A stretch of 49,494 nt of DNA from Pseudoprimorskyibacter sp. (GTDB lineage Bacteria > Pseudomonadota > Alphaproteobacteria > Rhodobacterales > Rhodobacteraceae), in the NCBI GenBank assembly GCA_029251265.1, contig JAQXDR010000179.1, positions 1-49,494 on the forward strand. Direction: 5' to 3'. The notes below the pieces were generated by a model. That model saw only the letters and a list, made by a program, of their open reading frames with translations, did no database searches and was not told where the DNA came from. The position numbers and the translations under genes are program-made. Positions 7,313-23,071 of the stretch are shown here, piece after piece (position 1 is the stretch's first letter; every line of letters begins with the position of its first letter).

Positions 7313-8602
7313 TCAAGCCGTTCCAACGTGGTGTCGCCGCCTGACAGACGAAGGTCGGTCCGGCAGTGCCAACTGGCTGTCATTGCGACGTTTTTGCGAA
7401 ACAATGTTTCCCTTTGAAATGACAACCAACCGATCGGGTCTCAATCTGATGGCTTCAATGGGATCACCAGCGTCCAGGACAATCAAAGAGGCCAAGGCGC
7501 CCTTGTAGATGCCGAAGTCGGCCTGTTCGATGATCGCGGCATTGTCCACGGTCACCATATCAAAGCAGCGCCGCATATCTTCTGGTGACGACATTTGCGC
7601 CACATGCAATCCCATAAAGGCAACGTCCAACATGTCAGCCGTACCCAGAGAGTACCAAGGATCCCGCACGCAGTCCTGCCCCCAGCCCACACGAATGCCA
7701 GCGGCTTGCATTTCTTTGACACGGGTCAAACCCCTACGTTTGGGGAATGTATCGTGCCGACCCTGCAACATGATGTTGATCAAAGGATTGGGGATCGCAC
7801 TGATTTCAGCCTCTGCGATAAGAGGTATCAGCTTTGAGACGTAGTAATTGTCCATGGAATGCATTGAGGTCAGATGCGACCCCGCAACCCGACCTTGTAA
7901 ACCCAAACGCGTTGTTTCAAATGCAAGGCTTTCAATATGCCGCGAATGCGGGTCATCTGTTTCATCGCAATGCATATCCACCGGAAGGCCGCGGTCCGCA
8001 GCAATTTCGCACAGCATACGAACCGACTGCGCACCTTCGGCCATGGTGCGTTCAAAATGGGGAATGCCGCCCACGACATCGACCCCCATGTCCAACGCCC
8101 GAACTGTGTTCACATGGGCAGTTGGGTCCCGCAACAGACCATCTTGAGGAAACGCAACCAGTTGTAAATCCAGATAGGGACGCACCGTTTCGCGGACATG
8201 GATCATGGCCTCGACACCCTTTAGACTGTCGTCACAGGTATCTACATGCGTACGGATTGCCAGCAGCCCCATGGAGACCGCCCAGTCACAATAGCGCAGC
8301 GCACGATCCACCATCTGATCGAGTGTCGTAATTTGCTTGAGCTCGCCCCAAAGTCCGATCCCTTCGAGCAAGGTTCCCGACGCGTTGATGCGCGGGGTGC
8401 CATAGCTCAGGGTTGCGTCCATATGAAAATGTGGATCGACGAACGGGGGTGATACCAAATCTCCGGTGGCATCGATCACAGTGTGGGCCTCTGCCCCGTT
8501 CAGCTGACCAACGGCCGCAATTCTGTCGCCGATAATGCCAACATCTGCTTGTGATCCGCTTGGAAGCGTTCCGCCTTTTACAAGAATATCAAAGCTTGGC
8601 AT
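7313..8602 (-). CDS. CodA-like cytosine deaminase family amidohydrolase (variant active site)
   Basis: A 429-residue metal-dependent amidohydrolase with close overall resemblance to E. coli cytosine deaminase CodA. Shared features are metal ligands H58/H60 in DPHFHMD, Q153 in AFPQDG, H211 and E214 in DMHCDETDD, H243 in SHLTSMHS, and D310. However, the CodA motif GHDDVFDPW is GQDCVRDPW here: Q309 replaces the His before the metal Asp, and C311 replaces Asp314, which lines the CodA pocket. The enzyme should still hydrolyse a C-N or amidine bond in a cyclic base, but cytosine may not be its substrate. ATGA overlap with the permease gene upstream places it in the BMP-type transporter operon, tying it to an imported heterocycle. 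Confidence 0.88.
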   Translation of the reverse strand: MPSFDILVKGGTLPSGSQADVGIIGDRIAAVGQLNGAEAHTVIDATGDLVSPPFVDPHFHMDATLSYGTPRINASGTLLEGIGLWGELKQITTLDQMVDRALRYCDWAVSMGLLAIRTHVDTCDDSLKGVEAMIHVRETVRPYLDLQLVAFPQDGLLRDPTAHVNTVRALDMGVDVVGGIPHFERTMAEGAQSVRMLCEIAADRGLPVDMHCDETDDPHSRHIESLAFETTRLGLQGRVAGSHLTSMHSMDNYYVSKLIPLIAEAEISAIPNPLINIMLQGRHDTFPKRRGLTRVKEMQAAGIRVGWGQDCVRDPWYSLGTADMLDVAFMGLHVAQMSSPEDMRRCFDMVTVDNAAIIEQADFGIYKGALASLIVLDAGDPIEAIRLRPDRLVVISKGNIVSQKRRNDSQLALPDRPSSVRRRHHVGTA

Positions 8603-9546
8603 CAGCGTTCTCCGCGATTGTAGGGGATCATAAGGGCTGCTGGCACCTCTGCACGGCGCGACATCAGGATCAGGGCCAAGATGGACAAAACATAAGGGAT
8701 CATCAAAAAGACCTGATAGGGAACCAACGCACCCAGCTCTGTCTGCTGCAAACGAATTTGCAAGGCATCAAATGCTGCAAACAAAAGCGCCCCTAAGAGA
8801 GCTTTGCCGGGGCGCCAGGCGCCAAACACCACAAGCGCAATGCAGATCCAACCGCGCCCGTTCACCATTTCGAAAAAGAAGCTGTCAAAGGCGGACATCG
8901 TCAAAAATGCCCCCCCAACGGCCATCAACCCCGACCCAACAATGACGGCGCCCATTCTCAGCGCAGTCACCGACAGACCCTGGGCCTCGACCGCAGCAGG
9001 GTTGTCTCCTGCCGATCTAAGCGCAAGACCAAGCGGGGTTCGATAGAGAACAAAGGCCGTTATTACGACGACCCCAAAGGCCAGATAGGTCAGCGGTGTC
9101 TGGTTGAAAATCGCCTGCCCGAATATCGGGATTTGGGACAAAACCGGTATTTCAAAGGGTTTGAACGGAACGATACGGGGGGGGCTGGAGACAGCCGGCA
9201 AAGCAAGGCGATAGATATAATACGCCGACGATGTTGCCAGCAAGGTGATCCCCAGACCAACGACGTGTTGGGATAACCCGAAAGGCACGGTAAGCGTTCC
9301 ATGCAGCAAGCCAAACAGCATCCCAGATGCCATTGCGACGCAGACCCCCGACCATAGCCCAAAGCCCATATAGACGGTCATCCAGCCCGCAAAGGCCCCT
9401 ATGACCATAATCCCTTCGATCCCCAGGTTCAAAATACCGGCGCGTTCGCAGATCAGCTCTCCCATGGTTGCAAAAATCAAGGGCGAGGCAATCCGGACCG
9501 CAGCGGCCCAAAAGCTTGCAGAAAGCAGGATATCAACGATGTCCAT
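8602..9546 (-). CDS. ABC transporter permease, nucleoside/BMP type (second subunit)
   Basis: A 314-residue inner-membrane protein of the BPD_transp_2 family with about eight to ten hydrophobic segments. The segment ICERAGILNLGIEGIM is characteristic of the shorter permease in BMP-type (NupQ/YufQ-like) importers for nucleosides and purines. It pairs with the permease encoded immediately upstream and overlaps that gene by one base. It is also coupled by an ATGA overlap to the CodA-like gene downstream. Confidence 0.93.
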   Translation of the reverse strand: MDIVDILLSASFWAAAVRIASPLIFATMGELICERAGILNLGIEGIMVIGAFAGWMTVYMGFGLWSGVCVAMASGMLFGLLHGTLTVPFGLSQHVVGLGITLLATSSAYYIYRLALPAVSSPPRIVPFKPFEIPVLSQIPIFGQAIFNQTPLTYLAFGVVVITAFVLYRTPLGLALRSAGDNPAAVEAQGLSVTALRMGAVIVGSGLMAVGGAFLTMSAFDSFFFEMVNGRGWICIALVVFGAWRPGKALLGALLFAAFDALQIRLQQTELGALVPYQVFLMIPYVLSILALILMSRRAEVPAALMIPYNRGER

Positions 9547-10595
9547 CAGCCCTTCACAATCCGGTAGCGCGTCAAAAGAATAGCAAAAACCATCAATAGC
9601 AAGGCGGTCGCCAGTAAGATGTCAGCAATATACGTGGGCACATTTGCAGCCCTGCTCATACTGTCTGCGCCAACAAAAATACCCGCGACAAAGATGGCAG
9701 AAACCACCACACCAACAGGATGCAACAAGGCCAGCATTGCGACAATAATCCCAGTGTACCCAAAGCCCGGACTAAGATCGAGCGTGAGCGACCCCTTCAG
9801 ACCCGCAACCTCGGAAAAGCCAGCCAGCGCCGCCAGTCCGCCAGATAACAGCGCGGTTTTCACCAAAACAAAATTAACAGGAATACCGGCAAACCGTGCG
9901 GCACGCGGGTTTTGCCCGACAGCGCGAATTTCATATCCAAGGGTGGTCCGTTTTTCGATCACCCAAACGGCGCCTGCACATATAAGTGCCAGCGCAAACC
10001 CCCAATGCAGTCGCAGTCCCGTGACAATCCGTGGCAAGCGCGCGTCTGGATCCAACCGAGGTGATTTTGGCCAGCCCATGCCCATTGGATCCTTCAAAGG
10101 GCCCTCTAACAGCAGCGAGATGAACAACAGAACTATAAAGTTGAGAAGAAGTGTTGTGACAACTTCGTCCACTCCGAACCGCGTCTTTAAAATAACCGGG
10201 CCAAGCAGCATGACAGCGCCCCCAACAATGGCTGCAAACCCCATGACGACAAGCGGCTGCGGACCGGGCAGACCCAAAGCCGATGTCCCGAAGACCACGG
10301 TCATCAATGCCCCGATGTAGAACTGTGCCTCTGCCCCAATGTTCCAAAGCTTTGCCCGAAAAGCGACGGCAACCGCCAGTCCCGTAAAGATGAGAGGCGT
10401 GGCACGGTTCAACGTCTCCAACGCTGCAAACTTTGACCCGACAGCCCCTTTAAGGATCAGGCCGAGGGTCGCAAAAGGGTTCGCCCCCGCCAACAGGACC
10501 AGCCCCGACGCCACAACTACAGACAGCAAAAGGGCCGCCGCCGGAAACCCTAATGAGCGCGCAATGCTGGGATTGGCGACAGGTTCAAGCCGCAT
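9546..10595 (-). CDS. ABC transporter permease, nucleoside/BMP type (first subunit)
   Basis: A roughly 349-residue BPD_transp_2 permease, the NupP/YufP-like partner of the subunit downstream. Marks include KLWNIGAEAQFYIGAL and TTLLLNFIVLLFISLLLEGP, with hydrophobic helices across the length. The ATG at 10595 is preferred because GAAGG lies eight bases upstream; a GTG at 10610 is also in frame. Either way the start lies inside the 3' end of the ATPase gene. Confidence 0.93.
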   Translation of the reverse strand: MRLEPVANPSIARSLGFPAAALLLSVVVASGLVLLAGANPFATLGLILKGAVGSKFAALETLNRATPLIFTGLAVAVAFRAKLWNIGAEAQFYIGALMTVVFGTSALGLPGPQPLVVMGFAAIVGGAVMLLGPVILKTRFGVDEVVTTLLLNFIVLLFISLLLEGPLKDPMGMGWPKSPRLDPDARLPRIVTGLRLHWGFALALICAGAVWVIEKRTTLGYEIRAVGQNPRAARFAGIPVNFVLVKTALLSGGLAALAGFSEVAGLKGSLTLDLSPGFGYTGIIVAMLALLHPVGVVVSAIFVAGIFVGADSMSRAANVPTYIADILLATALLLMVFAILLTRYRIVKG

Positions 10596-12123
10596 GGTCA
10601 AACCCTTCACCAGCCATCCATTTTCCTAACTCGATTGGCGTGATAGAGCCGCGCGCAAACTCTGGCGACAACCGGCCGTCAGACATCACGCGTATAACAT
10701 CTGCCAAACTCAGGATTTCATCCAGATCCTCTGAAATCAATAAAATCGCGGCACCAGCATCACGCGCGGCAATCAACCTATTCTGAACATAGGTCACTGC
10801 CCCGATATCCAGTCCTCGCACGGGTTGGTTTGCCAAGATAATCCGCGGACCGCCTTCAAGCGCGCGGCCTAGAATGAGCTTTTGCATATTGCCACCGGAC
10901 AACAGCCGGATCCGCGCGTCTGGACCCGGACACCGAACATCAAATCGGTCAATGACGTCTTTGGCCAGGCTTTCGGCGGCGGACCAGCGCATCCAGCCTG
11001 CTTTGCTGATTTCCGGGTCGCGGTATCGTTCGAGGATTACGTTTTCGGTAAGAGAGAATTCTGCAATGCTGCCCGTGGTGTGGCGATCCTCGGGAATGCG
11101 TCCAATGTCAGCCGCCAGCGCGGCGCGCGGGGACCACGATGAGACGCCCTGCCCGCCAAGCCGCATGTCGCCCCGATCCGGAACGGTTTGCCCTGACAAA
11201 AGGTCTGCAAGGACCCCCTGCCCGTTCCCCGACACACCTGCGAGGCCCAAAATCTGCCCGGCCCGCAGGTCCAGATTTATATTCCTCACACCTGTTCTTT
11301 GACCTTTGGGGTGGGCAAAAACACCGTGCATGCTGAACAAGGTCTCGCCTGGACTCGCGTCTGAGGGCACGGGTTTTACAATTTCCTGTCCGACCATGAG
11401 TTCTGCCAAGTCATGCGCGGACGTGTCGGATGTAGACGCTTGTCCCACGATCTTGCCATGACGCAACACAATCACACGATCCGAGATCGCCATGACCTCG
11501 TGCAGTTTGTGAGAGATAAAAATCACGGATAATCCGAGTTGGACCGCCTTTTGCAGGGTGTCAAAGAGAGCGTCGGATTCCTGCGGCGTTAACACCGCCG
11601 TCGGCTCATCCAGAATAAGAATACGTGCATCCCGATAAAGGGCCTTTAAAATCTCGACCCTTTGACGTTCGCCGACGGACAATGACCCCACCTTAGCGTT
11701 CGGATCCACCGACAAACCAAAATCATCGGAAAGCTGTTTGATCCGGGTCCGGGCTGCTTTGCGGCCAATTCCCAATGACCACAGTGGCGCTGTCCCTAGT
11801 ACAATATTATCCTGTACGGTCAGATTGTTAACCAGCGCAAAGTGCTGGTGTACCATGCCCAAACCCGCCTTTAAGGCCGCCCCGGTTGCACCCGCAGGCA
11901 ATGCTGTACCAAAAGCTTCGATGGTGCCTGCGTCAGCGGTATAATGGCCAAACAGGATATTCATCAGCGTCGTTTTACCCGCGCCGTTTTCGCCCAAAAG
12001 CGCGATGACCTCGCCCCGACGCAAATCGAAACTGATGGCGTCATTCGCGATCAAATCACCGAATGTTTTTGTAATACCATTGAGGCGCAGAACAATGTCC
12101 TGCGCCTCTGTCTTGTTAGTCAT
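10585..12123 (-). CDS. ABC transporter ATP-binding protein, two ABC domains (nucleoside/BMP type)
   Basis: A roughly 512-residue double ATPase that powers the BMP-type importer. The first domain has Walker A GENGAGKTT, signature SVGERQR and Walker B ILILDEPTAVLTP. The second has LSGGNMQK and LANQPVRGLDIGA, but its Walker A region reads GVSGNGQGV without the lysine, a degeneracy usual in this NupO/YufO-like family. The start is taken as the ATG at 12123, whose A is also the last base of the upstream stop (TGATG); a GTG at 12126 is in frame. Confidence 0.94.
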   Translation of the reverse strand: MTNKTEAQDIVLRLNGITKTFGDLIANDAISFDLRRGEVIALLGENGAGKTTLMNILFGHYTADAGTIEAFGTALPAGATGAALKAGLGMVHQHFALVNNLTVQDNIVLGTAPLWSLGIGRKAARTRIKQLSDDFGLSVDPNAKVGSLSVGERQRVEILKALYRDARILILDEPTAVLTPQESDALFDTLQKAVQLGLSVIFISHKLHEVMAISDRVIVLRHGKIVGQASTSDTSAHDLAELMVGQEIVKPVPSDASPGETLFSMHGVFAHPKGQRTGVRNINLDLRAGQILGLAGVSGNGQGVLADLLSGQTVPDRGDMRLGGQGVSSWSPRAALAADIGRIPEDRHTTGSIAEFSLTENVILERYRDPEISKAGWMRWSAAESLAKDVIDRFDVRCPGPDARIRLLSGGNMQKLILGRALEGGPRIILANQPVRGLDIGAVTYVQNRLIAARDAGAAILLISEDLDEILSLADVIRVMSDGRLSPEFARGSITPIELGKWMAGEGFDHAA

Positions 12124-13145
12124 CACGAGGACGTGGGCTCTGAATCATTGACCGCGACCACAAATGTACCGGCACGGATTGCAGCTTCACGTTCGCCAAC
12201 CAGTGCCAATGCTTCCGCCGGAACTTTTCCGTCAAAGTTGCCAAGTGGCGCAAGCGAACAGCCGCCCTCTTTCATATAGGAATATGTTCCATAGTTGGCC
12301 GCGCTAAAGCTACCTGCGTTCACTGCCGAAAGGGCAGCCTGCATCGTCGCCTCGAAATGCCAGATCGCAGATGCCACGACGGTGTCGGGATAGTCGGCCT
12401 GCGTATCGATCACATTCCCGATTGCAAGAACACCCCGTTCCTGCGCCGCATCAGACACGCCGAACCGCTCGGCATACATCATGTCCGCGCCATTCTCGAT
12501 CATGGCAAACGCTGTTTCTTTGGCTTTTGGCGGATCAAACCACGACCCGATAAAGGACACCTGGAAGGTTGCATCAGGTTTCATTTCCCGCACACCCGCC
12601 ATAAAGGCATGCATCAGGCGGTTCACCTCGGGAATCGGAAAGCCACCGACCATACCAATGTTTCCAGACTGGCTCATTGCGCCTGCGATGATCCCAGTCA
12701 GATAGGCCGCGTCCTGGATGTAATTGTCAAACACCGACAGATTTGGATACGCAGGATCATCCAGAAATGATGAGCCCAACAAAAACGCGGTCTCTGGATA
12801 ATCCAGAACGACCTCTCTTGCTTCGGCCTCAACTCCGAATATTTCACCGACAATCAGCTTGGCACCGCCTTCGGCATATTCGCGCATAACGCGCGTATAA
12901 TCCGTATTTGCCGTGTTTTCCGTGAATGTGTAATTGATCTGGCCGGCAGCCTGCGCAGCCTCAGCAGCGATATGAATGCGGCTTACCCATTGTTGCTCAA
13001 CCGGAACAGTATAAATACCGGCGACACTTATCGGATCTTGTGCCAAAAGCCGCGTGGGCAATGTGGCCAAACCGGCGACAGCGCCCGCACCGGCAAGCAG
13101 GCCTCGACGACCAATATGGGTTTTAAGCAAGTCAACGCGTTTCAT
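12123..13145 (-). CDS. BMP-family ABC transporter substrate-binding protein
   Basis: A 340-residue periplasmic binding protein. The N-terminus has a twin arginine (R13, R14 in GRRGLLAG) followed by a hydrophobic stretch, suggesting Tat or Sec export; cleavage probably falls near residue 35. The mature part is a basic membrane protein (Bmp/PnrA) domain, with DYPETAFLLGSS, GNIGMVGGFPIPEVNRL and a late GGCSLAPLGNFDGKVP segment. Family members bind nucleosides or purine-like bases. It is the first gene of the transporter operon. The 220 bp upstream hold two inverted repeats. Confidence 0.92.
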   Translation of the reverse strand: MKRVDLLKTHIGRRGLLAGAGAVAGLATLPTRLLAQDPISVAGIYTVPVEQQWVSRIHIAAEAAQAAGQINYTFTENTANTDYTRVMREYAEGGAKLIVGEIFGVEAEAREVVLDYPETAFLLGSSFLDDPAYPNLSVFDNYIQDAAYLTGIIAGAMSQSGNIGMVGGFPIPEVNRLMHAFMAGVREMKPDATFQVSFIGSWFDPPKAKETAFAMIENGADMMYAERFGVSDAAQERGVLAIGNVIDTQADYPDTVVASAIWHFEATMQAALSAVNAGSFSAANYGTYSYMKEGGCSLAPLGNFDGKVPAEALALVGEREAAIRAGTFVVAVNDSEPTSS

Positions 13146-13195
13146 GATATTCCCCTCTCATTCGTGGAATTAGACTACCGCATCTATCAAATGAA

Positions 13196-13255: not shown

Positions 13256-13365
13256 ACTCGCCACTTTCTATGGCTGATACTGAAGGCTGATCACGTACAT
13301 GATTGCGAACAGCCGGGTGGTAAATGACATCCAAACAAAGCTCGGATGTAGAAGGTATGGCAAAA

Positions 13366-14133
13366 TCAATCCGGGACGGGCATCGAGACGACCTTTTGCA
13401 AAAGCTCGATGAAACCCGCCACTTGATGATTGGCTGTCGCCCGTCCTTTGGCCGCCGTTGCGGCACTGGCATCTCCGACGGTTCCTGCAGGGTTCAGGTC
13501 CGACGCGATCCAGCCGCGACTGATAGGTCCAATTGGGGGCACCACATCGCTTTGTGCGGCAGAAACAAAATTTATAGCGCACGACATGTCCACAGCATCC
13601 GGTGCGAAATCAAGCATCAGGGATGTTTCAATATCCCCACCATGAATTCCAAACGCCTTTTCATGGTCGCTGAACATCCCATCGGGATGGCCAAAGCTGC
13701 CCCACTGGCATTTTACAGCAAGCATTCCTGCCTCGACACGCAATTCTCGTGAAAGAATTGAAATAAGATCAAGGTTGCCACCGTGGCTATTGATAATAAT
13801 GATCTTTTTAAATCCTGCACGCGCCACGGACAAACCGATTTCAGTCCAAGCTGCGAGTGCTGTTCTGGCCGTTAATGTCAACGTTCCCTGCGCCCACAGA
13901 TGTTCGTTTGACTTTCCAACTGTTTGGATCGGTAAAATCCATGGGTCCAGATCCTCAGGACACTGTTTGCGAAAAGCGTTCAACATACCGTCCATGATCA
14001 AAGTATCGGTGCCAGTTGGCAGATGGGCCCCATGCTGTTCAATAGCCGCCGTCGGTAAGATGGCAACAGACGTCTTTGGATCCACGTTTTCGAATTCAGG
14101 TTCACGGCGCAATGCCCAATCCAGTCGTCTCAT
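13366..14133 (-). CDS. Creatininase-family amidohydrolase
   Basis: A 255-residue metal-dependent hydrolase of the creatininase fold. Diagnostic motifs are LPTAAIEQHGAHLPTGTD (metal-binding E and H, substrate entrance), KKIIIINSHGGN and GIHGGDIETSLML (further ligands). The family includes creatinine amidohydrolase, the formamidopyrimidine deformylase ArfB and several lactamases, so the likely reaction is opening or trimming of a cyclic amide or formamide. The start at 14133 follows the upstream stop by one base; longer readings overlap the 2OG oxygenase gene. It is the last gene of the tightly spaced block. Confidence 0.88.
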   Translation of the reverse strand: MRRLDWALRREPEFENVDPKTSVAILPTAAIEQHGAHLPTGTDTLIMDGMLNAFRKQCPEDLDPWILPIQTVGKSNEHLWAQGTLTLTARTALAAWTEIGLSVARAGFKKIIIINSHGGNLDLISILSRELRVEAGMLAVKCQWGSFGHPDGMFSDHEKAFGIHGGDIETSLMLDFAPDAVDMSCAINFVSAAQSDVVPPIGPISRGWIASDLNPAGTVGDASAATAAKGRATANHQVAGFIELLQKVVSMPVPD

Positions 14134-14134: not shown

Positions 14135-15055
14135 TCATTGAAGTCCTTTGTATGTCGCGTCCAACCGCGATCGCAGATAATCTGACGCAAGAACGGGGGG
14201 ATAAACAGGCGATCCCGTGCCCGGTAACGCCTTAATCAGACTGTCGGGATTGGGATCAAGAAAAAAGGCAAGCGATCTGCGTGGACGTGGAGGCGGCAGA
14301 ACCCTATGCGGCGTTGAGACATAAACGTTATTTGTCCAACGCATCAGACAATCCCCGATATTCACGATGAACGCATCTTGAACATGCGGAACAGACAGCC
14401 ATCCCTGCTCTTTTGTCTGGATTTGCAAGCCGGCAACACCATCCGTCATCAAAAGTGTGATCGAGCCGTAATCTGTATGCGCACCGGCGCCGATCTCGTT
14501 TTCAACACCGCGAGACGCCGGATAGGACAGCAAACGCAAGATCGCCATCGGCGCATCAAACTGATCAGCAAAGTAGTCCGCTTCCAGCCCCATATCACGG
14601 GCAAAACTGGTGTGAAGTGTCACACCAAGATCCCATGTGGCATCAAAAAAAGTAAGGATTGTGTCCCGAAACCCGACCAAATCTGGCCAAAGGTTCACGC
14701 CACGAAAGGGGTCTCCCCGCAAGACCGAGGGATCGTTCGGCGCCAAATCAAGGCCGACATTGAACGCCTGTTTTTGATCGACAAAACCCGATGTTTCATC
14801 AAGGCTTTCTGTTCCGGTTGCCGCCCAACCCCGGTTATGGGGGTTGGATGCAATTGCCAGTTTTTGCTTTTCCGCATCCGGAAGGGCAAAAAAATTATCC
14901 GCATGTTCAAAGGTTTTATGGATCAGCGCAGGAGGAACCGGATGGTTTTTAAGCAAGAAAAACCCATGCGTACGGCAGGCACGGCCGACACGTGCTGAAA
15001 AGTCTATCGGATTTTGGACAAATTCGGTCCAATCCAGCAGGGGTATCATGGTCAT
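14135..15055 (-). CDS. 2-oxoglutarate/Fe(II)-dependent oxygenase (isopenicillin N synthase-like)
   Basis: A 306-residue oxygenase with an N-terminal DIOX_N region and a C-terminal double-stranded beta helix. The Fe(II) triad is intact: H193 and D195 in GAHTDYGSITLL, and H250 in STPHRV. The 2OG-binding RxS is R259-x-S261. Such enzymes hydroxylate or demethylate small molecules; thymine 7-hydroxylase belongs to the same family, which suits a cluster that handles bases. The first ATG gives an ATGA overlap with the upstream gene. A second ATG at 15049 has AAAGGA five bases upstream and may be the true start (protein beginning MIPLLDW). Confidence 0.92.
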   Translation of the reverse strand: MTMIPLLDWTEFVQNPIDFSARVGRACRTHGFFLLKNHPVPPALIHKTFEHADNFFALPDAEKQKLAIASNPHNRGWAATGTESLDETSGFVDQKQAFNVGLDLAPNDPSVLRGDPFRGVNLWPDLVGFRDTILTFFDATWDLGVTLHTSFARDMGLEADYFADQFDAPMAILRLLSYPASRGVENEIGAGAHTDYGSITLLMTDGVAGLQIQTKEQGWLSVPHVQDAFIVNIGDCLMRWTNNVYVSTPHRVLPPPRPRRSLAFFLDPNPDSLIKALPGTGSPVYPPVLASDYLRSRLDATYKGLQ

Positions 15056-15651
15056 CCTTTCAGAAATGCATCTGTCTTTCGGGCCACTTTTTGCAGGTGA
15101 TCGGCACGGCTGGCAGGGGTCGAACTATCCATGGAATAATGGGCGCCAAAGGCCGTCTTGCAGCCTTTGGCGCATAGCAACCGGATCCCTCGCAAAAGCG
15201 TCCGCTTGCCCGGCGCGCCGACAAACAACGTCAACCACCAGCTAGCGCCGCATGTGGTAAAAACCGCCAGACGTTTGATATGTGACAGTCCCGGTGCAAT
15301 GTTGTCACCTTCGCTTTGGGGTAAATCAAAGGCCAGACCGGGAACCAAGACACGGTCCAGCCAACCTTTAAGAATTGCGGGCAATCCATACCACCACGTG
15401 GGATAAACGAAAATCAGTGTGTCACACCACGAGACGTCCTCACAATATCGTTCGATGCCTGACCGATTGACGGCACAATCTTCGTATTGCACCCATTCCC
15501 GCGCAGTCATAACTGCCGAAAACCCCTCTTGATACAGGTCAATCACGCGCACCTGCGCGCCGGATGTTTCGGCCTGACGCCTGACCACATCCAAAATAGC
15601 CGCATTAAAGCTTTCGCCACTCGGATGGGCATAAACAATCAAGACGCGCAT
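15052..15651 (-). CDS. Flavodoxin-fold NAD(P)H oxidoreductase (Flavodoxin_2), copy A
   Basis: A roughly 199-residue FMN protein of the NQO/MdaB/KefF class. It begins RVLIVYAHPSGESFN, the phosphate-binding loop, followed by FVYPTWWYGLPAILKGWLDR, the hallmark of Flavodoxin_2, and FTTCGAS. It transfers hydride from NAD(P)H to quinones or other acceptors. The start is taken as the ATG at 15651, sharing one base with the upstream stop (TGATG); a GTG at 15654 is in frame. It is a diverged paralogue of the next gene upstream, and the pair may reduce two successive intermediates or feed the neighbouring oxygenase. Confidence 0.88.
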   Translation of the reverse strand: MRVLIVYAHPSGESFNAAILDVVRRQAETSGAQVRVIDLYQEGFSAVMTAREWVQYEDCAVNRSGIERYCEDVSWCDTLIFVYPTWWYGLPAILKGWLDRVLVPGLAFDLPQSEGDNIAPGLSHIKRLAVFTTCGASWWLTLFVGAPGKRTLLRGIRLLCAKGCKTAFGAHYSMDSSTPASRADHLQKVARKTDAFLKG

Positions 15652-16229
15652 CACAGGTCCTGCATCGCGCGTTTCACCCGCGACAGATGCTGGCCCAGCG
15701 TGTCAGACCCGTTGTTGTTCATGTCATAAAGCGCCAGATAGCTGGTTTTGGGCCAGCCACAGGCGTAACGGACGGCGCGCGTTACACATTTCCGCGGCGG
15801 GTCGCCATTCATCCACGCCCGAAACCGGGTCCCGCCATAGGTCGTACAGGCAGCCAGACGTTTAATATTCGTCAGGCCCGGGCGCACCCCTCCATTGTGA
15901 AGCTTAAAGCTCACATCCGGTAAAAATACGCGGTCAAGAAACCCTTTCAGGATGGCAGGATAGCCAAAGTTCCAAACCGGAAACACCATCACCAAAGCCT
16001 CGGCAGCCTGCAGCCGGTCCACATAGCCCTGCACCGGCACAATATTCGCATGAACATCATGATAGCTCCGCCGCTCTGGCTCTGTCAGCACCGGAGCAAA
16101 GTTTTCAGCATTGAGATCACAGTCGTCCACATCCCACCCCCGAGCCGACAGCGTCTGCACCACCGTTTTATGTACGGCCGCATTAAAACTGTCGGGACAG
16201 GGATGGGCATAAAGGACAAGAGTTTTCAT
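15651..16229 (-). CDS. Flavodoxin-fold NAD(P)H oxidoreductase (Flavodoxin_2), copy B
   Basis: A 192-residue paralogue of the gene just downstream, with KTLVLYAHPCPDSFN at the N-terminus, MVFPVWNFGYPAILKGFLDR in the middle and CTTYGGTRFR further on. It lacks the WW pair of copy A, so the acceptor pocket differs. It starts one base after the stop of the FAD oxidoreductase gene, indicating co-translation. Confidence 0.88.
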   Translation of the reverse strand: MKTLVLYAHPCPDSFNAAVHKTVVQTLSARGWDVDDCDLNAENFAPVLTEPERRSYHDVHANIVPVQGYVDRLQAAEALVMVFPVWNFGYPAILKGFLDRVFLPDVSFKLHNGGVRPGLTNIKRLAACTTYGGTRFRAWMNGDPPRKCVTRAVRYACGWPKTSYLALYDMNNNGSDTLGQHLSRVKRAMQDL

Positions 16230-16230: not shown

Positions 16231-17649
16231 TCACGCGCTGTTTTGAACTTTGGTCATCTGGGGGTAAGCATACATTTGCTCATATTTCCAATCTGGATCA
16301 TCCCAAGTGATCATCTTGCCGGGATTGAGCAGTCCCTTCGGGTCGGCCTCTTTTTTAAAGGATAATTGAGTGGGGTCCGCGTGCTGCCGCCCCCCCTCTT
16401 CCAAGGTGTACCGATGCGGATTGAAAATCAGGGCACCGGCCGCTTCATGTGCTTTTACGATCTCGTCAAGGCGTTCTTCGGACGTGAATTTCACCAAGGT
16501 CAGGCCCGCAAATCCAACCTGTCCACCGTCCATTCGAATGGCTTCAAGATGCTGGATCAGTTCATCGGGAAAATCTGCCCGCATTTTATTGACCAGATCA
16601 AAGTGGTCGGGAAACCCGTAACGTACCTGCAAATACGTGATACTGGGATCCACTTTCAAAGCGCGCAATGTGGTATGGTTCCAGCCATATTCAAAAACCA
16701 ATCCCGGACCTTTGGTCCAACTGTGATCATCTGACCGATAGATCAGTTTCAGATCCTCATTCCGCCCCATCCACGTCAAGAACCCAGCCATGGAGTGCGG
16801 CGCGACCATAAGGCCAATCAAATGGTCGTCCTCTTCCACGTATGGGGCCACGCGCTGAAAATATGCTTTGGCGGTAGGTGCTTCGTAAACGGATGCAATC
16901 TTGAGCAAAATACCGTTTTCATTTGCCAAACCATCCGCGCAGGCCATCGCGCGATCCCAGTCCTTGGCCGTCACAAAACAATCGACCCATTGATAGGCTG
17001 GCGCAAGGGGCAGTTCGAGTTCCGTTATTATTCCGTTGGTGCCATAGGCGTGGCTGACACGCGCCAGTTCTTCGCCGGTAAATTCCAAAACTTGCGGCTG
17101 TTCCTCCATAGTGACCACGCGCAAGCGCAGGATGTTGCCCAACTCGCGAAGAGATCCCCATGTCACAGACCCCACGCCCCCGGATCCGCCAGCAATGAAC
17201 CCGCCAACCGTAGCCGTTGCCCATGTCGAAGAGAACATCCGCAGTTCATGGCCGCATTCTGCAATGCAATGTGCATCCACATCCTTGAGCAGACACCCCG
17301 GCTGCACAACTACCCGTCCCGGCTCACAGTGGGTGACTTGGTTCATATGCTTGAGGTGCATCACACAGCCGCCCCGCATCGGCATGGCTTGACCATAATT
17401 GCCGGTTCCCGCACCACGGGTCGTCACCGGTACGTCGTGGGCATAGCAGGTTTTTAAAATTTCGATGACCTCTGCCTCGGTCTTTGGTCGGACAACGAAA
17501 TCTGCAACCAGATGATCCATCCGGGCCTTGAGTACCGGCGAATACCAAAAGAAATCCCGCGACGCGCTGAGAATTGCCTTTTCATTTGCCTCTATATCAA
17601 GATGTGACAAAGCCGCCTTTGCCGCGGCGACGTTAGATTGTAAATTCAT
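16231..17649 (-). CDS. FAD-binding oxidoreductase (VAO/GlcD-like)
   Basis: A 472-residue flavoprotein of the vanillyl-alcohol oxidase superfamily. The FAD-binding PCMH domain carries VTTRGAGTGNYGQAMP, VQPGCLLKDVDAHC, SSTWATATVGGFIAGGSGG and SHAYGTNGIIT. The C-terminal part ends with FNPHRYTLEEGG and DPKGLLNPGKMI, as in GlcD-type dehydrogenases. It probably oxidises an alcohol or hydroxy acid made by its neighbours. It is linked to the amidohydrolase gene by an ATGA overlap. The substrate cannot be read from the sequence. Confidence 0.87.
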   Translation of the reverse strand: MNLQSNVAAAKAALSHLDIEANEKAILSASRDFFWYSPVLKARMDHLVADFVVRPKTEAEVIEILKTCYAHDVPVTTRGAGTGNYGQAMPMRGGCVMHLKHMNQVTHCEPGRVVVQPGCLLKDVDAHCIAECGHELRMFSSTWATATVGGFIAGGSGGVGSVTWGSLRELGNILRLRVVTMEEQPQVLEFTGEELARVSHAYGTNGIITELELPLAPAYQWVDCFVTAKDWDRAMACADGLANENGILLKIASVYEAPTAKAYFQRVAPYVEEDDHLIGLMVAPHSMAGFLTWMGRNEDLKLIYRSDDHSWTKGPGLVFEYGWNHTTLRALKVDPSITYLQVRYGFPDHFDLVNKMRADFPDELIQHLEAIRMDGGQVGFAGLTLVKFTSEERLDEIVKAHEAAGALIFNPHRYTLEEGGRQHADPTQLSFKKEADPKGLLNPGKMITWDDPDWKYEQMYAYPQMTKVQNSA

Positions 17650-18908
17650 GGCGTTCCCTCGAACAAGTGGTCAAGTTCCGAATACTTCGGCAATGTGCGA
17701 TCAATGGCCTGACCATTACGCAAGACGACACGGTCTGACTGGGGACGAGAGAAAAACTCGTTCCAGTTCCTTGCAGTGAAAATCAGCAGATCCGCTGGAT
17801 CACCGACACTCAATCCCGCATGATCAAATCCGCAAATCATAGCGGGCGTCGAGGCAAAGCTGTCCACCCAATCCGGGTCAGAGTGATCAAGATGCGCAAT
17901 GCGAGTGGCCATACGCATCACTTCGACCATGTCCATATCGCCATAGGCATAGAACGGGTCGCGCGTGTTATCCGAAGCAAAGCCGACGTTAATGCCCCGG
18001 GCCTTCATTTCATGCACCAAAGTCACCCCGCGGGTGCGAGGCGTGCGGTTCGCATGGCGATCCTGAAGATATAGGTTGCACATTGGCAAACTCACCACAT
18101 TCAGACCCGCCTGTGCCACCAAATCAAGTGTGTCCAGAGCGCGTGCTTCGTCCTGCGACGACAGCGAACAGCAATGCCCCACAAGAACAGGCGCATCGAA
18201 CCCCGTCTCCAAGACGCATTGCGCAATCAGTCTGAGGGTCTCGGACGTCGGATCCAAAGTCTCATCGGTGTGAAAATCCAAAGATAACCCGTACTGCGCG
18301 GCGGTCTCGATATGGCCAAGCAATATCTTTTTCAGATCGGGCACGGGGTAAGACACCATTCCAAGAACGCCGTTGTGATCTGCGACGGTTCTGGCGATGT
18401 CTAGATATTCAGGAAGTGCGTAACCCTCGCAGGAAATCAAGCTGACCATCTGTAGGTCGATTTTGCCCGCCCATTTTTGTTTCAGCGCGTCCAGAACAGG
18501 CCAACTGATGCCATGTTGCCCGTTCATGGAATCCAAATGGGTGCGAATGGCCCGCGTTCCATGCGCATAGGCTGATCGGATAGAAAAGTCGGCTCGGGTG
18601 CGAACATCTTCTTGTGTCCAGTTTGCATGATCTGCGCGCACGTTGCTCAATGCCCCGATAAAACTGCCGTCGGGGTTCTGCGCCCTTGGAAGGATGTGAC
18701 CTTTGTCGAGATGCGTGTGGCAATCCACAAAGGCAGGTAAAACCAACGCGCCGCCCATTTCTATCCTTTGCCCGATCGGGTCGGCAATCCGGCCATTTTT
18801 GATCCCGATATCTGTCTGAACCAAATCGCCCGATTGCCCCAAAACCGATGCGGGAACCGTCACATTTTGAAGGGTATAATCATCTGCGGGAAGGGTTATA
18901 AAATCCAT
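17646..18908 (-). CDS. Cytosine-deaminase-like amidohydrolase, second copy
   Basis: A 420-residue amidohydrolase, distantly related to the CodA-like protein at 7313-8602. Metal ligands are H64/H66 in DCHTHLDKGH, H213 and E216 in DFHTDETLDP, H245 in VGHCCSLS, and D313 in FASDNTRDPFY. The HLDKGH signature marks the branch that contains many enzymes annotated as cytosine deaminases without proof. Catalytic residues are complete, so it is probably active on a cyclic amidine or imide. It overlaps the upstream permease gene by ATGA, tying it to the NMT1-type importer. Confidence 0.87.
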   Translation of the reverse strand: MDFITLPADDYTLQNVTVPASVLGQSGDLVQTDIGIKNGRIADPIGQRIEMGGALVLPAFVDCHTHLDKGHILPRAQNPDGSFIGALSNVRADHANWTQEDVRTRADFSIRSAYAHGTRAIRTHLDSMNGQHGISWPVLDALKQKWAGKIDLQMVSLISCEGYALPEYLDIARTVADHNGVLGMVSYPVPDLKKILLGHIETAAQYGLSLDFHTDETLDPTSETLRLIAQCVLETGFDAPVLVGHCCSLSSQDEARALDTLDLVAQAGLNVVSLPMCNLYLQDRHANRTPRTRGVTLVHEMKARGINVGFASDNTRDPFYAYGDMDMVEVMRMATRIAHLDHSDPDWVDSFASTPAMICGFDHAGLSVGDPADLLIFTARNWNEFFSRPQSDRVVLRNGQAIDRTLPKYSELDHLFEGTP

Positions 18909-19759
18909 CAGTCTTCTCTCTTCAAGGCGCTTTCATGCCAGCGGAACAAACACAAATGACTGATCAGGCTCATCAGCCCGAAAATGGCCACGCCCATGAC
19001 CGAAATCAGAATGAGCGAAGCGTATAAACGCCCAAAATTAAACCTGTAGGACGCCTCAAGCAAAGTGGACGCAAGTCCAAGGCCGGTCCCTGCACGTCCG
19101 ATGACGAACTCGGCCACGACCGAGCCGATCAGGGCCAGACCACCCGCAATTTTGAGCCCGCCTAAAAAGAAAGGCAACGCGGAGGGTGCCGCCAGATAGC
19201 GCAGCGTTTGCCATTTGCTGGCACCATAAATCTTGAAGAGGTCTTGAAGGTTATGGTCGGCGGACTTCAGCCCAATTGTCGTGTTCGACAAAATTGGAAA
19301 AAAGGCCACGATCCAAGCGCAGAGCAAGGCCGCCAGAAACGCGCTATCGACATAGATCTGCAACAGTGGCGCCACCGCCACCACCGGCGTCACCTGCAAG
19401 ATGACCGCATAGGGAAACATCGCAAGCTCTATCCATTTGGATTGCGTAAACGCTATTGCTATGGCCAATCCACCAAGGACCGCAAGGATCAACGCAATGC
19501 TCGTTAACCGCCCAGTGACCACCAAGGCAGGCCACAAAACATCCCAGTCCGTGACCAGAGTTTTCGCAATCAACCAAGGCGATGGCAGGATGTAATGTGG
19601 AACCTCGGCAAGGGTGACATAGGCCTGCCAGCCGCCGATCACCACCAACAAAACCAAAGACGGCAACGTCCATCTGGCGATCTTTGTTATTTGCTTTTGC
19701 CGCGCGCGCTGCTCTTCTTCGGTATCGACAACGGGCTGCTCGATATCCTGCACTGTCAT
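18908..19759 (-). CDS. ABC transporter permease (SsuC/TauC/ThiX type)
   Basis: A 283-residue inner-membrane permease with a long hydrophilic N-terminus, six or so membrane helices and a BPD_transp_1 coupling loop including KIYGASKWQTLRYLAAPSAL. It belongs to the group that imports sulfonates, taurine, nitrate, or pyrimidine precursors of thiamine. It overlaps the ATPase gene upstream and the amidohydrolase downstream, each by four bases. Confidence 0.93.
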   Translation of the reverse strand: MTVQDIEQPVVDTEEEQRARQKQITKIARWTLPSLVLLVVIGGWQAYVTLAEVPHYILPSPWLIAKTLVTDWDVLWPALVVTGRLTSIALILAVLGGLAIAIAFTQSKWIELAMFPYAVILQVTPVVAVAPLLQIYVDSAFLAALLCAWIVAFFPILSNTTIGLKSADHNLQDLFKIYGASKWQTLRYLAAPSALPFFLGGLKIAGGLALIGSVVAEFVIGRAGTGLGLASTLLEASYRFNFGRLYASLILISVMGVAIFGLMSLISHLCLFRWHESALKRED

Positions 19760-20535
19760 GCCGCATCCTCCATCGCTCGGGTCAGCATTTTTGATGCCTC
19801 TGCCGCAGAGGCCGCATAATCGGGCGATGTTCGAAAGCTGTCTGCGCGCGGATAGGGCGCATCCACGTTGACCTCGCCGATAATACGACCGGGTCGTGCC
19901 GCCATGACTACGATCCGGTCTGACAAAAATACGGATTCAAAAACCGAATGCGTCACAAAAATAACAGTGCATCCGATGGCTTCTCTTAGCGCCAATAAGT
20001 CTTTGTTAAGCTTGTGGCGCGTGATCTCGTCCAGCGCGGCGAACGGCTCATCCATCAAGATCAGCCGCGGCCGCGTCACCAGGGCGCGCGCGATAGACAC
20101 CCGCATTTTCATGCCACCCGATAGTTCGCGCGGGTAGGCATTCTGAAACTCTTCAAGTCCGACCAGCCGCAGCGCCTGCATGACATCGTCTTTGACACTG
20201 CCATAGCTTTTGCCGCGCAGCCTGAAAGGAAGCCACACGTTGTCTTTGACTTTCGCCCATGGCATCAGCGTAGGCTCTTGGAAGACGACGCCAAGATCGT
20301 TATCGCCTTTGCCGCCCTGCCAGTCGATGCTACCCGATGTTGGTGTGATCAATCCGGCGATCAAACGCAACGCCGTTGATTTCCCGCACCCAGACGGGCC
20401 AAGAAGAGACAAAAAATCGCCTTGGTTCACTGCCAAGTTCAGGTTTCGAAGCGCCACGACATCACCGCGAAACGTCTTTTCAATGTGAGACATCCGCAAA
20501 AGCTGTGGACGTGCTGCTTTTACTTTGCTTTGCAC
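19756..20535 (-). CDS. ABC transporter ATP-binding protein (SsuB/TauB type)
   Basis: A 259-residue ATPase with Walker A GPSGCGKST, the Q-loop region VVFQEPTLMPW, signature LSGGMKMR, Walker B LILMDEPFAALD and switch VTHSVFES. It energises the permease encoded next. It lies 54 bp after the binding-protein gene, separated by a stem-loop. Confidence 0.95.
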   Translation of the reverse strand: MQSKVKAARPQLLRMSHIEKTFRGDVVALRNLNLAVNQGDFLSLLGPSGCGKSTALRLIAGLITPTSGSIDWQGGKGDNDLGVVFQEPTLMPWAKVKDNVWLPFRLRGKSYGSVKDDVMQALRLVGLEEFQNAYPRELSGGMKMRVSIARALVTRPRLILMDEPFAALDEITRHKLNKDLLALREAIGCTVIFVTHSVFESVFLSDRIVVMAARPGRIIGEVNVDAPYPRADSFRTSPDYAASAAEASKMLTRAMEDAA

Positions 20536-20559
20536 TGCTACGTCTCCTACCTAAGAAAT

Positions 20560-20580
20560 AGGGCCGGCATAACCGACCCT
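20560..20580 (-). other. Intercistronic stem-loop after the binding-protein gene
   Basis: AGGG-C-CGG and CCG-A-CCCT pair around CATAA, ten bases beyond the binding-protein stop. There is no strong T-run. Such hairpins often stabilise the first cistron and lower expression of the transporter genes that follow. Confidence 0.45.
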
Positions 20581-20589
20581 AATGTGATC

Positions 20590-21588
20590 TTATTTTGCCA
20601 AGTCCATACCCAAGCCCTTGCCGACAAACTCTGTCGTATAGGCCGATTGCCAATCAAGGTCGGCCTCAATGACACCTGCGTCTACCATCTTGGCATAAAA
20701 GTCGCCGACTTTGGCATCAGTAATGACGCCGATGCCCAATTCTTCAGCATCTCCGGAGATCACGATACCGTTCTCGGTCATTTTTTCGATCGCAAAATCA
20801 ATCTTGTCATCAGTCATCTCTGGATTGTCTGACTTGATTTTTTCACGCGCTGCGGAATTGTCTCCGTATAAGAAGTTATACCACCCAAGAATGGATCCCT
20901 CGACGAAACACTTCACTTCATCGGGTTTGCTTTCAATAGTGGCTGCCATCGTTTCAATCGTGGTCGCATAGGTCGAATACCCCGCGTCAGCGATCAAAAA
21001 AACTGCTGGCGTGAAACCACCCACCTTTTCAACAAGGTACGGTTCAGATGACAGATACCCCTGCATACCTTTGCTAGTATCGGCCAAAAATGGTGCCGGA
21101 TTGAAGGTATAGGGCTGACGCTTTTCTGCTTTGAAACCATAAGCCGCCATCATCCACTGATAATATGACTGGTATCCATTATCACCAATCAGAAGATCCA
21201 GAGTTTTTAGATCTTCAAATGTCTCAGCCTGTCCGGGGTGCGCCAGAATAACTTGAGGATGTTTTTGAAAGCTGGCAGCCACGGCGACGACCGGAATGCC
21301 TTCTCTGACCGCATTGAAGGCCTGCAGCAAATCACCGCCCATATGATAGTCAATGCGACCCGCCAGCAACAACGCGCGGTTGTTAACCTGTGGCCCACCG
21401 GGAATAATGGAGACCTTTAGTCCACATGCCTCGTAGGTTCCATCAACAGAGGATTGATAAAATCCGCCATGTTCTGCCTGCGCGAGCCAGTTCGATCCAA
21501 AGGTAACCTCTGTCAGATGCCCACCAGCTATTGCCGAGGTGGCTGTCAGCGTTGCTGCCAGAGCGAGAGATGAAAGTTTTAAAGTCAT
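20590..21588 (-). CDS. NMT1/THI5-like ABC transporter substrate-binding protein
   Basis: A 332-residue periplasmic protein with a signal peptide (MTLKLSSLALAATLTATSAIA) and a type II binding fold of the NMT1/THI5 family, which includes binders of thiamine-pyrimidine precursors and related heterocycles. Segments such as GSNWLAQAEHGGFYQS and LLLAGRIDYHMGG are typical. The start at 21588 follows an AAGGA site and gives a clean signal peptide; a reading to 21630 adds a charged extension. It is the first gene of the long minus-strand train. It is divergent from ridA, across 83 bp. Confidence 0.92.
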   Translation of the reverse strand: MTLKLSSLALAATLTATSAIAGGHLTEVTFGSNWLAQAEHGGFYQSSVDGTYEACGLKVSIIPGGPQVNNRALLLAGRIDYHMGGDLLQAFNAVREGIPVVAVAASFQKHPQVILAHPGQAETFEDLKTLDLLIGDNGYQSYYQWMMAAYGFKAEKRQPYTFNPAPFLADTSKGMQGYLSSEPYLVEKVGGFTPAVFLIADAGYSTYATTIETMAATIESKPDEVKCFVEGSILGWYNFLYGDNSAAREKIKSDNPEMTDDKIDFAIEKMTENGIVISGDAEELGIGVITDAKVGDFYAKMVDAGVIEADLDWQSAYTTEFVGKGLGMDLAK

Positions 21589-21631
21589 TACATGATCCTT
21601 CTTGCCAAGGGTTTCGTTTCGGGTTTGCATT

Positions 21632-21653
21632 GCGTGGGCGTATCGCCCGGCGC
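21632..21653. promoter_or_regulatory. Palindrome in the divergent ridA / binding-protein promoter region
   Basis: GCG-T-GGGCG-TAT-CGCCC-GG-CGC reads as an interrupted inverted repeat centred on 21642, midway between two divergent starts. It is a candidate binding site for a regulator that controls both directions. No regulator gene is present in the cluster itself. Confidence 0.4.
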
Positions 21654-21671
21654 AAAAGGGGGACCGACGAG

Positions 21672-22061
21672 ATGATCAAAAGCAGTATTCCGCAGGGCAT
21701 GGCCCCACCTTTCGCCAGATACTCGCATGGTGTTTCGTGGGGGGGGCTGATTTTGACCTCGGGACAATTGGCGCTGGCCACCGACGGCAGCATTCCCGAG
21801 GGAGCAGAGGCGCAGGCTGATCTGATTTTTTCCAACATCGACCTTATTCTGCGGGATGTGGGCACAACGAAGAACAGTACACTGAAAGTCAGTGCGTTTG
21901 TCACCGATCGCCGTCATATGGCGGGCTACATGGTGGCCCGCGACCGATGGATGAGGGATGTACCCCATCTGCCTGCGTCGACGCTTATGATCGTCAGTGG
22001 ATTTACCCGCCCCGAATTTGTCGTGGAAATCGAAGTGATGGCGGCAGGACCGGATGTCTGA
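21672..22061 (+). CDS. RidA-family protein (YjgF/YER057c/UK114)
   Basis: A 129-residue RidA-like protein. Family features are YSHGVSWGGLILTSGQLAL at the front, the central NIDLILRDVGTT segment, and the C-terminal PASTLMIVSGFTRPEFVVEIEVMA. RidA enzymes hydrolyse enamine/imine intermediates; the RutC branch acts on aminoacrylate in pyrimidine degradation. The canonical arginine near the end (usually in a P-R-x-x-V context) is represented by R in FTRPEF, so activity is plausible. It is divergent from the transporter gene train, suggesting a shared promoter region and pathway. Confidence 0.87.
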   Translation: MIKSSIPQGMAPPFARYSHGVSWGGLILTSGQLALATDGSIPEGAEAQADLIFSNIDLILRDVGTTKNSTLKVSAFVTDRRHMAGYMVARDRWMRDVPHLPASTLMIVSGFTRPEFVVEIEVMAAGPDV

Positions 22062-22069
22062 AAAGCTTC

Positions 22070-23071
22070 TCATAAAGATACCTGCATGGGTCGTTTTTTG
22101 AAATTGGACCCTGGCCGCATCTGGATATCATCGTGGGCTGTCACAGGCTCGTAATGCCCCAAGGGTCCTGCCAGCAGTGTGTCTTGGTTAGCTTGGGCGA
22201 AAAACGCGATAGAGTGGCGGGCATCCAAGTTTTCATCTGGACGCGGCATCCGCACACGATGCAGGTTGGATATCAGCCGGTCGTCTGACCAACGCATCAC
22301 CATATCCTCAATATTACAGGTGATGACGTGATCCTCAGCCGGTACATCTATCCGTGTCGGATCTGATCCCGCTGGGTCCTGCCCCGCACAAACCTGCAAA
22401 CCGGGCTGCGCCCGTCGCTGATGCAGCAAGGTCAGACAGTCAAAATCGTTATATGCGCCTGCGCACCATTCGTTTAAATCTTTGGGTGTTGCGGTTGTCA
22501 GAGGAAGATAATGCAACAAACAAAAAATTGACTGATATTCCGGCCTAAGTGGATCATGCCCGTCCAGAAACATCTCTGGCTCAAAGGACAAATTCGTCGC
22601 AAGGCACGAAAGGGTTTGCATGGCCACCATCCAGTGCATCTGTTCAAATGCCAGCATCGTTGTCTTGAACTCGGGCAAGTCCCAAGGCCACAATGCAGCC
22701 ATTCGGGGTACCGTGATTTGGTAGCTTTCTTTTTGATCGGCAGTCCCGGTCAACGGACGTATTTGGGGTTTATCGTCCCATTCCGTATTTGTGCCGCGAG
22801 CCATCAGGTTATGTGCCTGTGCCTCGTGTCTTTGATCAAAGTATCGCGCGGCTTGATCACAGTCAGTGTCAATCAAATCACTCGGAATCACATGGCCAAC
22901 GATCTGGAAAAAGCCTGTGGTTGTGGCGGCTGCCCACAGTGCATTGGCCATTTCGTCTTTTCTGTTTCCGAAATCGGAAAAGTCGATCACAGGGATGTGA
23001 CGATCGCCCTCCTCCCCTTTCGTCCCAAAAAGACGTTCTTTTTCCAATTCGTTCAAAGCGTGGATGTCCAA
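22070..23071 (-). CDS. 2OG-Fe(II) oxygenase-family protein with altered iron site
   Basis: A 333-residue member of the isopenicillin N synthase-like family, with the N-terminal HIPVIDFSDF start of DIOX_N and a C-terminal jelly roll. The distal ligand H271 (SNLHRV) and the 2OG-binding R285-x-S287 are present. The usual HxD is replaced: where relatives read GAHTD, this protein reads GAYND (residues 205-209), so the first iron ligand His is Tyr207. It may be inactive, or use an unusual metal site. The start is TTG, supported by AGGGGA five to six bases upstream; the next in-frame ATG would remove 40 conserved residues. It converges on ridA, eight bases apart. Confidence 0.85.
   Translation of the reverse strand: MDIHALNELEKERLFGTKGEEGDRHIPVIDFSDFGNRKDEMANALWAAATTTGFFQIVGHVIPSDLIDTDCDQAARYFDQRHEAQAHNLMARGTNTEWDDKPQIRPLTGTADQKESYQITVPRMAALWPWDLPEFKTTMLAFEQMHWMVAMQTLSCLATNLSFEPEMFLDGHDPLRPEYQSIFCLLHYLPLTTATPKDLNEWCAGAYNDFDCLTLLHQRRAQPGLQVCAGQDPAGSDPTRIDVPAEDHVITCNIEDMVMRWSDDRLISNLHRVRMPRPDENLDARHSIAFFAQANQDTLLAGPLGHYEPVTAHDDIQMRPGSNFKKRPMQVSL

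Follow-up and report, generated by a model that had tools for sequence, protein, structure and literature searches.

A conserved, probable pterin-ring degradation operon beside a separate importer–deaminase cassette in a Pseudoprimorskyibacter genome

The contig JAQXDR010000179.1 of Pseudoprimorskyibacter sp. (Rhodobacteraceae), whose 49,494 nucleotides are the window analysed here, carries a block of 14 minus-strand genes (7313–21588) that an earlier note, made from the letters of the sequence, had read as a single route for a modified nucleobase. We find that the block is two units and not one conserved unit. Unit A (13366–22061) is a real conserved operon that probably serves the uptake and degradation of the ring of pterins and folates, and unit B (7313–13145) is a free-standing importer-plus-deaminase cassette, normally independent of unit A, for which we propose another N-heterocycle as substrate. 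A pterin is suggested as the substrate of unit A by two kinships, namely that its flavin adenine dinucleotide (FAD) protein is closely related to a flavin oxygenase labelled folate-catabolic by the title of its PDB entry, and that its amidohydrolase AH2 falls in the lineage of pterin deaminase (PDA).

First, the gene order of unit A recurs in relatives. When the FAD protein was searched against 394 genomes of the family Rhodobacteraceae, 132 gave a match at E 1e-80 or better, and a close group of 91 (the genome of the window included), with identities of about 60% or more save for one genome at 53% (G106), makes this version of unit A common in the family as sampled. Two sets of loci, partly overlapping and both drawn from samples of genomes, were compared. 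The family set comprises the surroundings of 100 matches, each stretch at most 20 kb long, with 87 loci whose FAD protein is at least 59% identical, 64 of which count as full-flank loci (5.5 kb or more upstream and 4.5 kb or more downstream); the database set stems from a named genome collection with at least 588 relatives, the best 80 loci of which were kept, 62 of them with an FAD protein at the same threshold. The order of the unit-A genes recurs across the 87 family and the 62 database loci, beyond what chance would give, and the gene make-up of the database loci is similar to that of the family loci. Gene sets of this type occur in many marine and root-associated bacteria. Among more distant FAD proteins (38–48% identity; L137–L148), the creatininase, AH2 and FAD genes stand together in 12 of 12 loci, with importers and reductases that vary. 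The genes of unit A, and the oxygenase homologue upstream of it, are as follows, with counts over the 64 full-flank family loci.

21672..22061, plus strand: RidA/L-PSP protein, divergent from the operon (Pfam Ribonuc_L-PSP; 53 of 64)
20590..21588, minus strand: NMT1/THI5-like substrate-binding protein (Pfam NMT1; 64 of 64)
19756..20535, minus strand: ATP-binding cassette (ABC) ATPase (Pfam; 64 of 64)
18908..19759, minus strand: ABC permease (Pfam; 64 of 64)
17646..18908, minus strand: AH2, an amidohydrolase placed in the pterin-deaminase lineage by tree and sites, named "cytosine deaminase" by NF005759 (63 of 64)
16231..17649, minus strand: FAD protein, a relative of the flavin oxygenase of PDB 6v42 by sequence and structure match
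15651..16229, minus strand: FLD1, a flavodoxin-fold NAD(P)H reductase (Pfam; 58 of 64)
15052..15654, minus strand: FLD2, a flavodoxin-fold NAD(P)H reductase (Pfam; 61 of 64)
14135..15055, minus strand: OG1, a 2-oxoglutarate (2OG)/Fe(II) oxygenase with an intact facial triad (Pfam, residues), optional in the unit (29 of 64)
13366..14133, minus strand: creatininase-fold amidohydrolase (Pfam, metal motif; 57 of 64)
22070..23071, minus strand: OG2, the other 2OG-oxygenase homologue, which a few relatives also have upstream of unit A (Pfam; 3 of 64, likewise 3 of all 87 family loci, and 2 of the 62 database loci)

All 14 open reading frames of the block are present, co-directional and without internal stops, and Pfam confirms the folds of all families named among the window proteins: two ABC importers, two CodA-like amidohydrolases, creatininase, 2OG-Fe(II) oxygenase, FAD_binding_4, two Flavodoxin_2 proteins, RidA (L-PSP) and the DIOX_N/2OG protein. 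The earlier gene list, with RidA and a second oxygenase at the border, is correct. The NMT1 importer is made up of a binding protein, an ATPase and one permease, and the BMP importer of a binding protein, an ATPase and two permeases. Most genes do overlap or lie 1 base apart, as had been remarked, save at a gap of 54 bases adjoining the NMT1 binding-protein gene and one of 220 bases between the creatininase gene and the BMP binding-protein gene, the latter being the border between units A and B. Translation probably starts at 14133 for the creatininase-fold protein (1 base past the OG1 stop), at 21588 for the NMT1 binding protein and at an ATG at 21672 for RidA.

Second, the FAD protein has one close relative among solved structures, 6v42/6v43 (E 1.5e-165; the next match lies at 9.8e-15). 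A model built from a 48-sequence alignment (the window protein plus 47 database loci; mean predicted confidence, pLDDT, 86) superposes on 6v42 with a Z of 46.6, a root-mean-square deviation of 1.9 and 54% identity over 447 aligned residues, the next match reaching Z 30.0 at 18% identity; a model from the single sequence (pLDDT 34) was useless and was set aside. This full-length match of both sequence and predicted structure lies far above those to other VAO-fold proteins and argues for membership in the 6v42 family. The title of that entry reads "Crystal structure of the flavin oxygenase with cofactor bound involved in folate catabolism".

Third, AH2 is likely no cytosine deaminase. A pterin deaminase of Variovorax sp. 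F1 has been cloned and assayed, converting folate and pteroate to their deamino forms; its gene is followed by an endoribonuclease gene, the printed 5′ primer encodes MKLEAVR, and the enzyme shares 37.0% identity with Arad3529 of Agrobacterium radiobacter K84 (You et al., 2022, PMC9513972, in the sections covered). We searched for this primer, at up to 3 mismatches, in the 61 genomes of a genus (g699) that is probably Variovorax or its kin. The primer matched in 60 of the 61, but many genomes also matched its reversed form, used as a control, and most matches at 3 mismatches are therefore due to chance. Twelve match loci were taken, and two of them (L328 and L330, with 2 and 3 mismatches) hold the deaminase: the match opens a 396-residue frame beginning (M/L)KLEAVRIP, an AH2 homologue with RidA directly after it. 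We label these two proteins "PDA-type" on the strength of the published primer and the adjacent RidA. A third locus of the genus (L306) has a 400-residue copy, 76–77% identical to both, likewise with RidA; there, genes for a creatininase, an NMT1 importer, an FAD protein, a further binding protein and reductases of two kinds lie next to the pair, which is on the opposite strand. A search of L306 for the downstream primer of the same paper, at 3 mismatches, gave no match. At one mismatch, the 5′ primer also gave two matches among 299 genomes of another family, at loci without an AH2 match, and these were discarded.

Window AH2 is 35–37% identical to the PDA-type proteins of L328 and L330, and 31% identical to AH1, the amidohydrolase of unit B. 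An AH2 protein of Rhizobium rhizogenes (L218) is 36–37% identical to the same proteins, other AH2 matches in that genome reaching at most 30%. As this identity fits the 36–37% published for Arad3529, and as we take strain K84 to belong in R. rhizogenes, where it is usually placed, the two may be one gene.

In a tree of 27 rows, the PDA-type and all AH2 proteins group together and are split from AH1 and Escherichia coli CodA by a 100/100 branch, with branches inside the AH2/PDA lineage of up to about 1 change per column. The equivalents of H61, H63, H214, E217, H246 and D313, which we take to be the metal and catalytic residues, are kept in 27 of 27 rows, so AH1, AH2 and CodA have this site in common. 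At what we take to be the substrate-binding positions of CodA (Gln156, Asp314 and Trp319), 21 of 21 AH2/PDA rows have Asn in place of Asp314 and Phe in place of Trp319, and none keeps Gln156; window AH2 has Ser, Asn and Phe, and scores 112 bits against CodA. On these residues and the tree we reject AH2 as a true cytosine deaminase and place it in the pterin-deaminase lineage, so far as sequence comparison can place it, and the earlier note's modified nucleobase, passed through a cytosine deaminase, is not supported. AH2 nevertheless exceeds the curated cut-off of the NCBIfam "cytosine deaminase" equivalog NF005759 (572.9 against 403 bits), as does the Rhizobium copy (701.9), and the same model is the best one for the PDA-type protein of L330, below the cut-off (340.9). 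This suggests that NF005759 likely mislabels pterin deaminases in many genomes.

From these kinships we infer the substrate, the order of steps and the roles of the importer, creatininase-fold protein, 2OG oxygenase, RidA and reductases as follows. The NMT1-type importer would take up a pterin, be it folate, pteroate, a free pterin or a glycosylated one, and AH2 would strip its 2-amino group to leave a lumazine of the deaminofolate type. The FAD protein would then oxygenate the deaminated ring with reducing power supplied by the NAD(P)H reductases FLD1 and FLD2, RidA would clear the resulting reactive imine or enamine, and the creatininase-fold hydrolase would open a cyclic amide of the ring system. 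OG1 could add an optional further oxidation, being found in under half of the full-flank relatives. Uptake of an N-heterocycle followed by its deamination and its oxidative and hydrolytic degradation, as the earlier note had it, is supported in outline. More tentatively, and as a proposal that we hold to be possible but short of probable, unit A could be a complete and widespread pathway for mineralising the pterin ring that is not described as such in the papers searched, with a pterin-specific importer of the NMT1 type, a mislabelled deaminase, a ring-breaking VAO-fold flavin oxygenase, an amide-opening creatininase-fold enzyme and, in Rhodobacteraceae, a variant with a 2OG oxygenase.

Several points weigh against a pterin as the substrate. 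The folate role of 6v42 is known from the entry title, and no paper on 6v42 turned up in the open-access text searched; nor did that literature yield an assay of any unit-A enzyme. AH2 is linked to the assayed F1 and Arad3529 enzymes through the primer match and published identities, its identity to the PDA-type proteins is no higher than 35–37%, and the split inside the lineage is old. AH2 also passes the cut-off of NF005759 and thereby bears the name cytosine deaminase, which tells how members are annotated and not that they were assayed. In F1 extracts, according to a figure legend, deaminopteroate was not degraded, and ring opening is not shown (PMC9513972); the term "gene cluster" is absent from the text of that paper, and a ring-opening step from the sections covered. 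Other points come from the genomes. Of 25 distant loci compared together, 20 from another family and 5 from plasmids, 23 contain creatininase, 16 RidA and 19 an AH2-type gene; this last went unseen in L287, L308, L313, L318, L319 and L323, some of them on short contigs, and the deaminase is thus no constant part of the cluster. Three loci of genus g699 (L307, L309, L310) belong to a second cluster with another amidohydrolase sub-lineage, and because the genus carries both kinds, substrates may differ between clusters and the genus may handle two of them. Finally, no folate-specific gene was recognised among the recurring neighbours of unit A, compared across 204 loci.

The same observations feed the reading that unit A degrades some other fused bicyclic 2-amino-oxo heterocycle of pterin-like shape, such as a purine, a 7-deazapurine or a flavin fragment. 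Deep splits run through the AH2/PDA lineage, clusters vary in their reductases, their importers and even in whether they have the amidohydrolase, one genus has two clusters, and no folate-specific companion was recognised among the recurring neighbours. We nonetheless consider such a substrate unlikely, as pterins are what both enzyme anchors point to (the PDA-type deaminase and, as titled, the flavin oxygenase 6v42), and 21 of 21 rows conform to the pattern at the three sites for specificity.

Clusters related to unit A also lie on plasmid records of Klebsiella, Pantoea, a Comamonadaceae bacterium, Ruegeria TM1040 and Agrobacterium, where the partners include a VanB-type reductase, a TauD-type dioxygenase or an isopenicillin N synthase-like oxygenase. 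Among the recurring neighbours, the largest clusters resemble antisense frames, as judged by eye from the letters, and the smaller ones (6–9 loci) look housekeeping-like. The clearest real neighbour is a LysR regulator gene in 18 loci, mostly of Rhizobiaceae, plus L137, Klebsiella and Pantoea. In Rhizobiaceae (L046 and L285, and by spacing L208–L227) the creatininase gene lies upstream, with a LysR gene on the opposite strand between it and the importer. It is possible that this LysR gene encodes a dedicated regulator.

The two 2OG-oxygenase homologues differ in their state of preservation. At least 97% of 62 OG1 rows keep H193, D195 and H250, together with R259 and S261, and with them the full His-x-Asp…His and Arg-x-Ser signature. 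Among solved structures, OG1 is matched best by a chain named ethylene/succinate-forming enzyme, by a "probable iron/ascorbate oxidoreductase" and by thymine dioxygenase. It is missing from 35 of the 64 full-flank family loci. This absence, together with the kinship of the FAD protein to a flavin oxygenase titled as folate-catabolic, speaks against the "2OG then FAD" oxidation of a side group proposed earlier. In OG2 the first His of the iron motif has become Tyr (YND in the window, HTD in the 5 of 5 orthologues found, at 55–58% identity), so that the His-x-Asp…His signature is broken in the window, and there are further changes; in this genome OG2 may be undergoing decay or may have lost its catalytic function. 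As for the creatininase-fold protein, what we take to be its metal motif is kept in 172 rows.

Unit B comprises the following genes.

12123..13145, minus strand: BMP/PnrA-like substrate-binding protein (Pfam, cassette comparison)
10585..12126, minus strand: ABC ATPase with two ATPase domains (Pfam, cassette comparison)
9546..10610, minus strand: ABC permease 1 (Pfam, cassette comparison)
8602..9546, minus strand: ABC permease 2 (Pfam, cassette comparison)
7313..8602, minus strand: AH1, a CodA-lineage amidohydrolase with Cys at the Asp314 position (tree, sites)

These genes adjoin unit A in none of the 87 family loci, the 64 with full flanks included, and in 2 of the 62 database loci (L149 and L188), each of which has the two units near each other in an arrangement that differs from that of the window. 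The co-occurrence in relatives that the earlier note had named as its check holds for unit A, in the 87 and the 62 loci, and fails for unit B beside it. AH1 itself has matches in 131 of the 394 family genomes (E 1e-100 or better). Twenty AH1 loci were fetched: 19 hold the five-gene cassette, and the remaining one, a 9.4-kb contig, lacks the binding protein only; no AH2, FAD or creatininase gene was found near AH1 in any of the 20. Plasmid records of Shinella, Tritonibacter, Paracoccus and Rhizobium likewise carry AH1 and the BMP importer without unit A, with AH1 first in the cassette of Tritonibacter and an amidase inserted in that of Rhizobium. AH1 scores 322 bits against E. coli CodA (1k6w) and keeps Gln156 and Trp319, and Cys replaces Asp314 in 5 of 5 AH1 rows, so its residues depart from the full CodA set at that site; given this replacement, AH1, a common "cytosine deaminase" linked to BMP importers, may have a substrate other than cytosine.

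The two units could still cooperate, with unit B supplying the unit-A enzymes with a second, chemically related heterocycle or a deaminated product, which would be compatible with unit A degrading pterins. They are adjacent in the window and stand together, otherwise arranged, in L149 and L188. The presence of unit B, however, does not clearly follow that of unit A (37 of 90 family genomes with A against 93 of 303 without; Fisher p = 0.074, own genome excluded and kinship uncorrected), and with the 220-base gap between the units and no adjacency in the 87 family loci, we give cooperation a low probability. That all 14 genes form one route, in which a modified pyrimidine base is imported, deaminated, oxidised at a side group (2OG, then FAD) and ring-opened, is very unlikely: a single co-directional block, thymine dioxygenase among the closest solved relatives of OG1, the NCBIfam name cytosine deaminase on both amidohydrolases and the proximity of the units in L149 and L188 speak for it, but neighbourhood comparisons show unit B to be a separate five-gene cassette that stands alone elsewhere, AH2 lacks the specificity residues of CodA, OG1 is optional, and the FAD protein is closest to the flavin oxygenase titled as folate-catabolic.

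Elsewhere in the window, two overlapping GTPase-domain genes (4592–7190, minus strand; MMR_HSR1, one with a Dynamin_N match) lie directly downstream of unit B; the larger of the two was not seen near unit A in any of the 149 loci counted. Two GAPDH genes stand in tandem at 29730–30914 and 31267–32268 (plus strand), and the Rfam small RNA SorX (44968–45048, plus strand; 62.4 bits) is found a short way downstream of the gene for a LysR-type regulator (43933–44877).

Little is known of how bacteria break the pterin ring in folate and related pigments, and the 2022 Variovorax work, as far as covered here, ends at deaminopteroate (PMC9513972). Unit A, in which a PDA-lineage enzyme and a relative of a flavin oxygenase are joined by an importer, reductases and a candidate for ring opening, makes such a pathway directly testable. 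The operon is not described in the open-access papers searched (titles and abstract starts). It is undescribed only in part, as its key enzymes have known relatives: the assayed pterin deaminase (PMC9513972) and the flavin oxygenase of the 6v42 title correspond to two of them, which corrects the earlier statement that the gene set matches no known pathway.

Among known systems, the Rut pathway resembles unit A in its flavin oxygenation with a separate flavin reductase, its RidA-family protein and its amide hydrolase (PMC7662398, the covered parts of which mention neither folate nor pterin). Unit A differs from it in having a VAO/GlcD-fold FAD protein, an unrelated hydrolase and an ABC importer, and is not a member; Pfam matches to RutA (luciferase-type), RutB and RutD were absent from the sixteen window proteins, the rest of the genome being unsearched for Rut. 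Creatininase and MftE share with the window protein the creatininase fold and the conserved metal-site motif, and that protein lies far under their curated cut-offs (74.1 of 235 bits for TIGR04448, and 89.2 of 172 bits). E. coli CodA has its metal site in common with AH1 and AH2, from which it differs by the absence of Gln156, Asp314 and Trp319 in AH2 and by Cys for Asp314 in AH1. Two further counterparts are known. Window AH2, despite its modest identity to the PDA-type proteins, falls in the same lineage as the PDA-type loci that we connect to the F1 enzyme and Arad3529 (as published), and has their site pattern; RidA follows the gene there, which in g699 can also have genes for FAD protein, creatininase and NMT1 importer clustered beside it. 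The FAD protein, in turn, is homologous over its full length to 6v42/6v43, the flavin oxygenase that its entry title assigns to folate catabolism.

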